NCBI RefSeq assembly: GCF_900115065.1
Contig: NZ_FOVE01000005.1
Span: forward strand, 1 to 64,000
DNA length: 64,000 nt
Source of the DNA: Formivibrio citricus
Lineage (GTDB): Bacteria; Pseudomonadota; Gammaproteobacteria; Burkholderiales; Chitinibacteraceae
Direction of reading: 5' to 3'
Below, one piece after another: positions 61,482-63,669 of this stretch. Within the stretch, counting starts at the first letter, position 1. The number at the start of each line of letters is the position of its first letter. The notes beneath the pieces are model-generated. The model was not told where the DNA came from, did no database searches, and saw nothing but the letters and a program-made list of their open reading frames with translations. A program made the position numbers and the translations under genes.

Positions 61482-62390
61482 TCAACGCCGACTTTCCGGT
61501 AGCGGTGGCTCCAGCGACTGCGGTGTCAGCATCGTATTCAGCGGCCAGCTTCGCCGCACGCCTTGCAGGGTATCGCGACTATCGCGCACCAGATCGTCCG
61601 AGTTGCGTACAATCGAAGGCAGGCGCGGAACAGACTCCTCCACCGCGCCCCGCACCATGGAAGCAACCGCACTGGCATCCCGCACCGCCGATTCGACGCT
61701 CGCCAAGCTGGAAGCTGTACGGTCCAGTATGCGTGGCAAACGGGCATTGACCGTTCCCGCGGTCGAATCGAGCCGCACCAGCAAGGCATCCATACGGGCC
61801 CGCGTCTGCTGAAGCTCGGCAGTCAGTTGTTTCACATTAGCCACAGACTGACGAACGTCTCCTTTGGGATCATTGATGTAATCCATCGTGATCTGGAATG
61901 AGTCCAGAATAGGCAAGGCGCGACTGCGCAAGTCATACGCGACATCGGCCAGGCTGTGCGCCGGAGCGAAGTTAACCTTGCCTCCTGCCTTGAGGGGCTG
62001 CTGAGCAGGGGAGCCCCCCATCATTTCGATGTAGTAATCCCCCATCAAACCTTCCTGCAGCAATTGAGCCGTCGAGTCGGCTTTGATCCACTTCATGTAA
62101 CGCGATTCGACAAGCAGATCGACCTGCACCTTGGCCTGCTCGGTCAGCTCCACTTTATCGACAACACCGATGCGAAAACCAGAGAAACGTACCTGCATGC
62201 CGGGCAGCAACCCCGCCCCATGGTCAGCCAGAAAATGCAGGCGGGTTTTGCTGACAAACAGCCCCTGCTTGAATGCAATGACCGCCGCCAGTCCGGACAA
62301 TGTCAACAAAATGGTCACGCCGAATACCACGACCCGCCAACCCAGCCACTGAAAGCGCGGATCGGTTTCCTTAAGCAATTTCAACGCCAT
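61482..62390 (-). CDS. MCE-domain (MlaD-like) lipid transport protein
   Basis: A 302-residue protein: one N-terminal transmembrane helix (about 14-36), then an MCE domain (about 40-140, with LLPGMQVRFSGFRIGVVDKVEL), then a long helical tail with heptad-like pattern. MCE proteins form hexameric periplasmic tunnels that move phospholipids between membranes. ATG 62390 is preferred, with AGGAGG five bases upstream; 62393 is the alternative. Neighbouring permease and ATPase-like genes overlap, indicating one complex. Confidence 0.88.
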   Translation of the reverse strand: MALKLLKETDPRFQWLGWRVVVFGVTILLTLSGLAAVIAFKQGLFVSKTRLHFLADHGAGLLPGMQVRFSGFRIGVVDKVELTEQAKVQVDLLVESRYMKWIKADSTAQLLQEGLMGDYYIEMMGGSPAQQPLKAGGKVNFAPAHSLADVAYDLRSRALPILDSFQITMDYINDPKGDVRQSVANVKQLTAELQQTRARMDALLVRLDSTAGTVNARLPRILDRTASSLASVESAVRDASAVASMVRGAVEESVPRLPSIVRNSDDLVRDSRDTLQGVRRSWPLNTMLTPQSLEPPLPESRR

Positions 62391-62953
62391 CATTCCTCCT
62401 CTCGTTCCGCAACAAGCCCCCACCCCCCGGGAACTTCGCAGCCCCCTGCCACGATCATGCATTCAGCAGCCAGCAGCGCACGCCAAGCCCGCCCATGAGC
62501 CGTTTCCTCCCCACGGCCAAGCATGTCGCGCCAGAACTCTTCTTCCACGATCACGCAACTCGGTTCCAGCAACAACGAACGCAGCAAAACCATCAGGCGC
62601 CGTTCACCACGATCAAGCGCGGCAGGTTGAAGCCCCATCAGTATGGTCTGCCGATCTTCGGACAGACCTGTCGCAACCAGCAGGTTCGACAAGCGACCCT
62701 CAAAGCCCTCCAGCGCGCCGCCTTCCCGATACCACAACGGCAAAACCAGGTTTTCCCACACGCGCAAATTGCTGACCATGACCGCATCGGCATCCAGCAC
62801 AGCTACGCGTCCGGGGCATTTTAGCTGTGCAGCAGAGGCGAGCCGGTCAACCCATTCCCTGGCGGCATTCCCGTCCTTGGGCAAAGACACCCACCACCGC
62901 CCTGGCAGGCACGGGTCACCGAAAAATTCCGTATGGGATACAACATGCCTCAT
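62390..62953 (-). CDS. Degenerate ABC ATPase-like protein lacking the P-loop
   Basis: A 187-residue protein in the place of the Mla ATPase. The start at 62953 overlaps the permease stop (ATGA). Recognisable relics of an ABC ATPase are NLRVWENLVLPL (residues 62-73, the helix after the Q-loop), LDRGERRLMVLLRSLLLEP (113-131, at the LSGGQ site) and CVIVEEEFW (133-141, at Walker B). The Walker A position reads SLPKDGNAAREW with no GxxGxGK, the signature is LDRGE, and no switch histidine is seen. It should not hydrolyse ATP alone. The frame is intact across 187 codons, so it is a kept gene, not an obvious pseudogene. Confidence 0.65.
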   Translation of the reverse strand: MRHVVSHTEFFGDPCLPGRWWVSLPKDGNAAREWVDRLASAAQLKCPGRVAVLDADAVMVSNLRVWENLVLPLWYREGGALEGFEGRLSNLLVATGLSEDRQTILMGLQPAALDRGERRLMVLLRSLLLEPSCVIVEEEFWRDMLGRGEETAHGRAWRALLAAECMIVAGGCEVPGGWGLVAEREEE

Positions 62954-63669
62954 AGAACCAACGACCATAAAAAATCCATCAAAAACAAAGCGAGGATGCC
63001 GAAAAAGACGGCACGAGATGCCGTTTTGGGAATTTCCGTGGGCAGCGGCGGGGTCAACACGCCCACTGCGCAAGTCAGCAACCCCGTGCACAATCCAAAC
63101 AACAGCGACTTGCCCAGACAAACCGCGATCCAGGCGGGGAGGAGCATCCGGTCAAGTTGCAGCAATTGGTAACCCGCATGCCAACCGGAAGAAAAAGCCA
63201 CCCCGCCCGCCAACGCAAACAAAGCCAGGCATCCCGACAGGATCATCGCAGCAACCGCGAGCGCAGCTACACGAGGCAGAAGCAGGTAATGCTCGCAAGG
63301 AATTCCATGGAGCTCCAGACAGCGGAACTCCCCATGCATGCGCATATTGGCGAGCTCGTTCGCCACGGCAGAAGAAGAGCGCGCCACGACGATCAACGTC
63401 CCCAGCAGCGGCCCCAATTCGTTCATGACGAGCCGCCCCAGTATCCGCAGCGCGGTGTCCCAACTCTGGCCATATTCGTCATGCAATTGCAATACGACAG
63501 TCGCCCCCAGGGCGAACCCGATCATGGCAACAAGCCATCCTGCCTCGTTGCCGGTAAAGTAAATCTGCTTCAAAAAAACGCGGCGCACGGGAGGGTGGCG
63601 CAAAAGGGGCCAGCCACGCCAGAGCAGGAATAGCGGTGAAAGTGTCTTGAGGATTCCCATGCCCATCAT
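62950..63669 (-). CDS. MlaE-family ABC permease
   Basis: A protein of up to 239 residues with about five hydrophobic helices. The family motif ELGPLLGTLIVVARSSSAVANELANMRMHGE (shown in parts: ELGPLLGTL, NELANMRMHGE) marks it as an MlaE permease, normally a dimer in the inner membrane bound to MlaF and an MCE hexamer. Starts at 63669, 63666 or 63660 are all possible. First gene of the operon, divergent from trxB. Confidence 0.87.
   Translation of the reverse strand: MMGMGILKTLSPLFLLWRGWPLLRHPPVRRVFLKQIYFTGNEAGWLVAMIGFALGATVVLQLHDEYGQSWDTALRILGRLVMNELGPLLGTLIVVARSSSAVANELANMRMHGEFRCLELHGIPCEHYLLLPRVAALAVAAMILSGCLALFALAGGVAFSSGWHAGYQLLQLDRMLLPAWIAVCLGKSLLFGLCTGLLTCAVGVLTPPLPTEIPKTASRAVFFGILALFLMDFLWSLVL

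Follow-up and report, generated by a model that had tools for sequence, protein, structure and literature searches.

A relative of the ATPase MlaF without a P-loop is conserved in an MCE-type lipid transport operon of Formivibrio citricus

What is the role of a gene that occupies the place of mlaF, between the genes of an MlaE-type permease and an MCE protein, and encodes an ABC-like protein without a P-loop? Such a gene lies on the minus strand at 62390-62953 of the window, which is the whole stretch of 64,000 nucleotides analysed here from the start of contig NZ_FOVE01000005.1 of Formivibrio citricus. Its frame is open over 187 codons, from the ATG at 62953 to the TGA at 62392-62390, and the stop-start overlaps with both neighbours that had been described in the original prediction are present as ATGA at each end: the start overlaps the stop of the permease gene at 62950-62953, and the stop overlaps the start of the MCE gene at 62390-62393. 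The genes form a tight operon in the order MlaE-type permease, pseudo-ATPase, MCE protein and TPR-like lipoprotein, with the following features.

62950-63669, minus strand: MlaE/YrbE-type permease P0002, 239 aa, recognized by PF02405, by the trees and by its coupling region
62390-62953, minus strand: pseudo-ATPase P0001, 187 aa, putatively MlaF-derived, with no P-loop, Q-loop glutamine, signature or H-loop
62858-62884, minus strand: Walker A place, residues 24-32, LPKDGNAAR, from alignment with 28 intact MlaF-like ATPases; assignment uncertain
62729-62779, minus strand: post-Q-loop block, residues 59-75, MVSNLRVWENLVLPLWY, recognized by conservation, with predicted docking on the coupling helix
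61482-62393, minus strand: single-domain MCE protein, 303 aa, ATG at 62393, PF02470
60673-61473, minus strand: TPR-like lipoprotein with lipobox LMGC, fourth gene of the operon, TPR_12 just below the cut-off

The permease is well above the Pfam cut-off (PF02405, 119 bits against 22.5) and below that of NCBIfam TIGR00056 (87 against 212); the MCE protein likewise matches PF02470 over one stretch (51.9 bits, cut-off 25.1) and stays below TIGR00996 (69 against 140). The lipoprotein reaches 29.4 bits with TPR_12, for which the cut-off is 30.1. No Pfam match to a STAS domain (MlaB) or to MlaC was found among the four operon proteins, and the MlaE permease and single MCE stretch seen by Pfam differ from an arrangement of a PqiA-type membrane protein with several MCE domains.

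By sequence alone, the kinship of P0001 with ABC ATPases is marginal, since it scores 13.5 bits against Pfam ABC_tran (cut-off 25) and its top NCBIfam match is FtsE with an E-value of 0.007; the best phmmer match in the PDB has an E-value of only 0.067. Full-length homologues pass the ABC_tran cut-off (42 and 32.6 bits), and the kinship of the window protein rests on these homologues and on structure. AlphaFold gave a pLDDT of 94.3 for the window protein (73 sequences) and 94.1 for a full-length member from Geomonas (33 sequences). The best match of the Geomonas model is MlaF (6xbd_I; Z 27.4, 1.7 Å over 212 residues), and its first three matches are all MlaF (6xbd_I, 7ch7_C with Z 26.9 and 7ch8_J with Z 25.4), the last of them tied with other ABC nucleotide-binding domains (NBDs), of which the next lies at about Z 25. 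The window model aligns with 6xbd_I at Z 12.1 (3.6 Å over 167 residues) and with ABC NBDs generally at Z 11.6-13.0 among the 50 matches shown, MlaF being no better than the others. As modelled, the window protein has the ABC NBD fold without part of its core, and throughout the window's taxonomic family the stretch from the old Walker A to the Q-loop is shorter by about 22 residues. The C-terminal 'handshake' extension of MlaF is absent from the model, in which residues 8-185 of 187 align to residues 27-225 of the 263-residue chain.

The state of the ATP site was read from an alignment of 76 distinct members (profile score of 70 bits or more, distinctness being judged on the last 150 residues) and 28 intact MlaF-like ATPases, in which 11 catalytic positions were scored. 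In the window protein, the Walker A place is occupied by LPKDNAAR, the Q-loop by VLDA, the signature by LDRGE, Walker B by VIVEEE and the H-loop by VAGG; the protein matches two of the 11 positions, namely one glycine of the signature and the glutamate of Walker B, and has neither the Q-loop glutamine, the Walker B aspartate nor the H-loop histidine. GxxGxGK[ST] is not found at its Walker A place, which is LPKDNAAR in this alignment and a gap in a second one because the stretch is shortened, nor is LSGGQ or LSGGM found at its signature. The reported disappearance of Walker A, signature and switch histidine is thus confirmed by alignment, and the Q-loop glutamine can be added to the list; of the Walker B-like VEEEF that had been thought to remain, the glutamate position matches, but with the aspartate missing the resemblance is weak. 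Across the 76 members, the third Walker A glycine is kept in none, the middle glycine in three, the lysine in four and the serine or threonine in six. The Q-loop glutamine remains in two, each of the two signature glycines in two, the signature serine in 25, the Walker B aspartate in 25 and glutamate in 13, and the H-loop histidine in four, and no member keeps more than three of the 11 positions. The intact controls keep 26-28 of 28 at these positions, the Walker A count being so by construction because they were selected for having Walker A and for their resemblance to a single intact MlaF. At Walker A, the information per column is 3.82 bits in the intact proteins and falls to 1.25 bits in the members; at the signature the corresponding values are 4.28 and 1.87 bits.

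Three trivial explanations were considered and rejected. A sequencing error is ruled out by a loss common to 76 distinct homologues, and a chance open reading frame by the homologues and by dN/dS. A frameshift hiding the P-loop was also rejected: full-length members of the Geomonas type align with MlaF from the first residues, and the P-loop is absent in frame.

With the window protein as query, 38 of 61 genomes gave matches at an E-value of 0.001 or better (its own included), and 35 of the 37 genomes of the window's taxonomic family carry the gene; two of the three matches beyond that family have only 21 bits and are unread. None of the 35 members read from the family has a P-loop. The two genomes without the gene (G009 and G034) are among five of genus g8, in which the other three members are divergent and still lie beside permease and MCE genes. 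No permease of the pseudo-ATPase type occurs among the MlaE matches of G009 and G034, and this joint absence fits a loss of the system as a unit.

The spread beyond the family is a lower bound, as the genome searches scored the first 8, 10 or 23 candidates per genome. A member was found in at least 24 of 300 genomes sampled from the window's order (75 bits or more; families f1, f14, f21, f24, f33 and f51), in at least two of 398 genomes sampled from the phylum, both from the window's order, and at least 46 of 141 genomes of the Geomonas order gave a match. Walker A is absent from all 24 order-sample members read, and the P-loop from all 45 of the Geomonas order that could be read at this place, one more being cut by the contig end. 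Nine further genomes of the order sample have matches of 55 bits or less, and the six that were read are ordinary ABC ATPases. A scan of genome contigs yielded nine loci, comprising seven members (four from Geobacter/Geomonas and three from proteobacterial MAGs) and two ordinary ABC ATPases. Loci L041, L042, L070-L075, L082-L088 and L091, with intact motifs, are ordinary ABC proteins and were left out of the family. An intact in-frame P-loop in a homologue, which had been named as a possible sign of error in the window, was found in no member read.

The gene order is kept as well. The earlier reading as a conserved pseudo-ATPase in an MCE operon has been borne out. Permease, pseudo-ATPase and MCE genes lie together on one strand in 30 of the 30 loci first read from the window's family and in 20 of 24 loci of the order sample; in the other four, all from f24, no permease lies within the 1.5 kb covered, and that of L148 was located about 3.5 kb farther along the same gene run. 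Of 30 loci in the Geomonas order, 16 have the complete trio, and 14 have the pseudo-ATPase and MCE genes with no permease nearby. The fourth gene is lipoprotein-like in 12 wider loci: a lipobox was found by a simple pattern in 10 of them, that of L156 at an unlikely place, and the remaining two have a cysteine in a similar place. By Pfam, five of six fourth-gene proteins have TPR above the cut-off and that of L036 falls below it. Gene calls in all wider loci come from a simple caller that overlooks some known genes, such as those of the NBD and the MCE protein in L212.

Some features of these neighbourhoods deserve mention in their own right. A subgroup of the Geomonas order has its permease gene on a separate contig from those of the pseudo-ATPase and the MCE protein, as located in two genomes with no permease nearby (G787 and G828; L149, L155, L161 and L162), and such a separation is unusual for an ABC-type transporter. 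Genes for a CHASE2 adenylate/guanylate cyclase, a class II cyclic-nucleotide phosphodiesterase or both occur beside or inside the operon in Geobacterales and f24 (L035:1061-3974 and L148:4765-6555, by Pfam), and similar genes are recognized by sequence likeness only at L158:6640-9699, L214:2-2125 and L161:5108-5890.

Selection on the gene was estimated by the method of NG86 from within-genus pairs, of which 39 were tried, 34 were defined and 14 had a dS of 1.3 or less. In these 14 pairs the median dN/dS of the pseudo-ATPase is 0.25 (range 0.10-0.51), and the maximum over all 34 defined pairs is also 0.51; the nearest pair (L016/L020) has a dN of 0.026 and a dS of 0.257. The gene is therefore under purifying selection and is not decaying; the ratio near 1 that would have indicated decay was not observed. 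The medians for the permease and MCE genes in the same pairs are 0.12 and 0.14, their frames having been taken from stop to stop and perhaps including some leader, and a ratio about twice that of its neighbours indicates that the constraint on the pseudo-ATPase is weaker.

In the post-Q block, N62, L63, W66, E67, N68, L71 and P72 are near-invariant, and the block holds 3.20 bits in the members versus 3.44 bits in intact MlaF. N68 and, outside the block, R125 are invariant in both groups; N62, W66 and L71 are conserved residues of the pseudo-ATPase family's own. We take this block, from general knowledge of ABC structures, to lie in the contact with the coupling helix, and by analogy it would be expected to dock there on the permease. 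The coupling region of the permease is also still conserved (3.05 bits versus 3.35 bits in canonical permeases). E114 and Y128 of P0002 are invariant in 59 of 59 permeases of the pseudo-ATPase system, and the canonical permeases have glutamine in 25 of 32 and arginine in 15 of 32 at the respective places. In MlaFEDB, according to the accessible text of PMC7790496, it is the MlaE coupling helix between TM2 and TM3 that contacts MlaF. The presence of own residues both in the permease coupling region and in the post-Q block suggests a dedicated pairing of the two proteins.

The origin of the family can be approached through the permeases. In a first tree, the 59 permeases of the pseudo-ATPase system fall on one side (92/87) and the 32 canonical MlaE permeases on the opposite side (100/99), with labels that are partly circular, being given by an NBD of the family in the locus or else by the score to the family's permease profile. 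Matches to this profile were found in at least 101 of 345 genomes of the phylum of Geomonas (Thermodesulfobacteriota), and the best 30 loci include 24 with a readable NBD gene beside the permease and six with none. Walker A is intact in 11 of these 24 NBDs (L187, L195-L201, L203, L205 and L206), partial in five, where GK is kept and other residues are lost, and absent in eight. The LSGG signature is lost in all 24 and the H-loop histidine is absent from all 23 that could be read there by alignment, those with intact P-loops included. Ten of the 11 (L195-L201, L203, L205 and L206) have a changed signature in common, LSLGxK/R or ISxGLK in most cases, beside their intact Walker A, and their ATPase activity may be unusual.

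A wider tree of the permeases contains a clade of 12 (10 with intact P-loops and two without a readable NBD), a clade of eight in which intact, partial and lost P-loops are mixed, and a clade of 71 with 65 pseudo-ATPases, five rows without a readable NBD and L090, which has Walker A. Its labels were set by a regular expression and a score limit, and L188 and L194, counted there as pseudo-ATPases, keep a GK remnant; its deep forks are weak (87/33); both trees were rooted at the midpoint, with a warning from the program of meeting long branches. L090 has a very long branch, which falls within the pseudo-ATPase clade of the wider tree and outside that clade in the first, and we are unsure whether L089 and L090, both with Walker A, form clean sister groups. 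A single origin of the loss, allowed by the first tree (92/87), was given up, because the wider tree needs four changes of the pseudo-ATPase label; on this evidence loss more than once is likelier.

Eight wider loci were read along this graded series, and in six of them the permease, NBD and MCE genes are accompanied by a lipoprotein-like fourth gene: L207 and L209 with an intact P-loop, L210 with an intact P-loop and a further altered signature, L211 with a partial one, and L213 and L214 with none. L208, also with an intact P-loop, has the first three genes, but its fourth gene is not a lipoprotein, and L212 was unreadable with the simple gene caller. The occurrence of distant relatives that have the same gene order and a P-loop points to descent rather than to error. 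To judge from the sequences, the H-loop and signature may have gone first, then the P-loop, and then part of the core.

If the pseudo-ATPase cannot hydrolyse ATP, the motor might be supplied from elsewhere. Three MlaE genes and three MCE genes are present in the window's genome. Each of the two further systems, on contigs C11 and C37, includes an MlaF with Walker A beside a canonical MlaE, and no third MlaF-like ATPase was found in this genome, where the scores drop from 570 and 175 bits to 117. The second full mlaF that had been sought is thus present twice over, but neither copy is spare. An ATPase similar to MlaF at an E-value of 1e-43 or better exists in 30 of 30 tested genomes holding the pseudo-ATPase gene; for many of them, not all, the P-loop of such an ATPase could be read next to a canonical permease, and the canonical-type permease of G742 has no visible ATPase neighbour. 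The pairing with an active ATPase that was proposed as one solution is unlikely to give a working site: a composite site combines Walker A from one half with the signature from its partner, and since both motifs are gone here, neither site would be complete even with an intact MlaF.

Apart from this question, three loci of the same survey have canonical-side MlaE permeases with no ABC ATPase gene seen nearby by simple gene calls (L160:4120-6033, L163:2323-3102 and L164:4087-4857), one of them (L160) with an MCE gene directly after the permease; these are possibly further systems with no ATPase or an unlinked one. The MlaE gene beside an intact MlaF at L152 (G009:C1:2595367-2595986) gave a split match whose two parts lie in different frames, suggestive of a frameshift or an assembly error.

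Our preferred reading, to which we give a probability of roughly 60%, is that a catalytically dead NBD derived from MlaF is kept as a structural adaptor in an MCE lipid conduit of its own that works without ATP. Across the series, the MCE protein, the permease and its coupling surface persist, as does the lipoprotein in most cases, and the ATP chemistry disappears; a structural adaptor is the simplest reading of this combination. The subunit would descend from MlaF or a near relative, would bind no ATP, and would owe its retention to docking on the coupling helix of the MlaE-type permease that belongs to it. A permease dimer, a pseudo-ATPase dimer, an MCE ring and the lipoprotein would then make up a four-part envelope machine, through which lipid could move between the membranes without ATP hydrolysis, passively or driven in some other way. 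The larger proposition, that a branch of the MlaE/MCE systems abandoned ATP and became a passive lipid conduit built on a former motor, with living relatives preserving the steps, has in our view about an even chance.

The most serious competitor of this adaptor is an intact MlaF that powers the permease in trans, the pseudo-ATPase being a regulator or placeholder that competes for the coupling site or occludes it. Mycobacterial MceG, which is encoded apart from its permeases, offers a precedent, and the MlaF-like ATPases in all 30 tested genomes would provide the motor. Against it stand the two MlaF genes of the window's genome, each beside a canonical permease, and the coupling region of the permease and the post-Q block, which differ from those of the canonical pair. 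Furthermore, E. coli MlaF requires MlaB and the C-terminal extension for stable assembly, as stated in the available part of PMC7367683, and none of the four operon proteins gave a match to a STAS domain. MlaF-like ATPases to borrow from are present, but we could not find a dedicated, unlinked one in the window's genome, and we regard this alternative as possible and rather improbable. Less probable still is a conduit gated by a signal, with the dead NBD as a gate or sensor that opens the permease and cyclic nucleotides as the candidate signal. This is suggested by the CHASE2-cyclase and class II cAMP phosphodiesterase genes adjoining the operon in a Geobacter locus (L035) and by a CHASE2-cyclase inside the operon in L148, both assigned by Pfam, and by a phosphodiesterase-like gene beside the moved permease in both genomes followed. 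No such gene, however, was seen in the operon of the window or at the three annotated wider loci of its family that carry the system (L156, L157 and L159), and no recognisable ligand site was found in the protein.

Two further explanations are very improbable. One is degeneration, with a decaying ATPase in a transporter that is itself being lost: the gene is absent in two of 37 genomes of the family, the three other members of the same genus are divergent, and the constraint is weaker than on the neighbours. But dN/dS is well below 1, the frames are open, the model is well folded, and the gene persists in two phyla; the one TGA seen in two matches reflects a match that runs past the gene's own stop (L055). 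The other, hardly more credible, is that a nucleotide is still bound or that a new enzymatic role has arisen, to which the single lysine or acidic residues that a few members keep around the former site might be taken to point. With at most three of 11 catalytic positions kept in any member, and with conservation highest in the post-Q block, at R125 and at residues shared with MlaF instead of in a new polar cluster, the members give it little room. In short, of the options raised at the outset (borrowing, pairing, or working without ATP), the last is favoured.

If the adaptor reading is right, the system bears on two questions about MCE transporters. The direction of lipid movement by Mla is an open question, as stated in the accessible text of PMC7790496, and so is the coupling of ATP use to lipid movement. 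In a natural system whose motor is dead and whose permease and MCE protein are related to the known ones, conduit and motor are separated in a directly testable way, and its relatives offer an ABC-type transporter lineage in which the stepwise loss of catalysis could be followed. Automatic annotation is likely to miss the pseudo-ATPase, which lies below the Pfam ABC_tran cut-off; a survey that locates MlaF by profile plus synteny (PMC10665443, from the part available) would probably count such operons as lacking MlaF. Within the literature searched, most subscription papers and preprints being outside it and sources being available in part, we found no description of a pseudo-ATPase in an MCE operon.

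One of the nearest known systems is MlaFEDB of E. coli and its relatives, with which the operon shares an MlaE-family permease, an MCE protein and a cytoplasmic subunit of the ABC fold. It differs in the loss of the ATP-site motifs and of the C-terminal extension, in the absence of MlaB and MlaC from the operon, in the added lipoprotein and, in the window's taxonomic family, in the shortened core. The ATP site of E. coli MlaF is needed, since Walker A and Walker B mutants fail to complement according to the accessible parts of PMC7367683 and PMC5016091; given that a dead E. coli MlaF fails, an ATP-free relative would be a real change of mechanism. In the same genome, the C37 system has its permease, NBD, MCE and lipoprotein genes in the same order, but there the ATPase is intact, the lipoprotein is PqiC-like by eye, and the permeases fall in the canonical clade. 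Mpc of Brucella also combines a permease, an NBD, an MCE protein and a lipoprotein, whereas its ATPase is described as homologous to MlaF and its lipoprotein as PqiC-like (PMC12436622, as far as its text was available). PqiA and LetA are, in the available text of the same source, MCE partners without an ATPase domain, so ATPase-free MCE transport has a precedent with another type of permease. In PqiABC and LetAB, the PqiA or LetA permease works with multi-MCE proteins, whereas here the permease is of the MlaE type, the MCE protein has a single such stretch, and the NBD, though dead, is still present. Altered NBD motifs are also known from ABC exporters such as TAP and TM287/288, in which one site is degenerate and one complete composite site is kept, whereas the members read here keep neither P-loop nor signature. 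Also close are the relatives from Thermodesulfobacteriota with intact P-loops, which have a related permease with the NBD beside it and, where enough was read, the MCE gene after it; they differ in their intact Walker A, though in them too the H-loop is lost and the signature altered.
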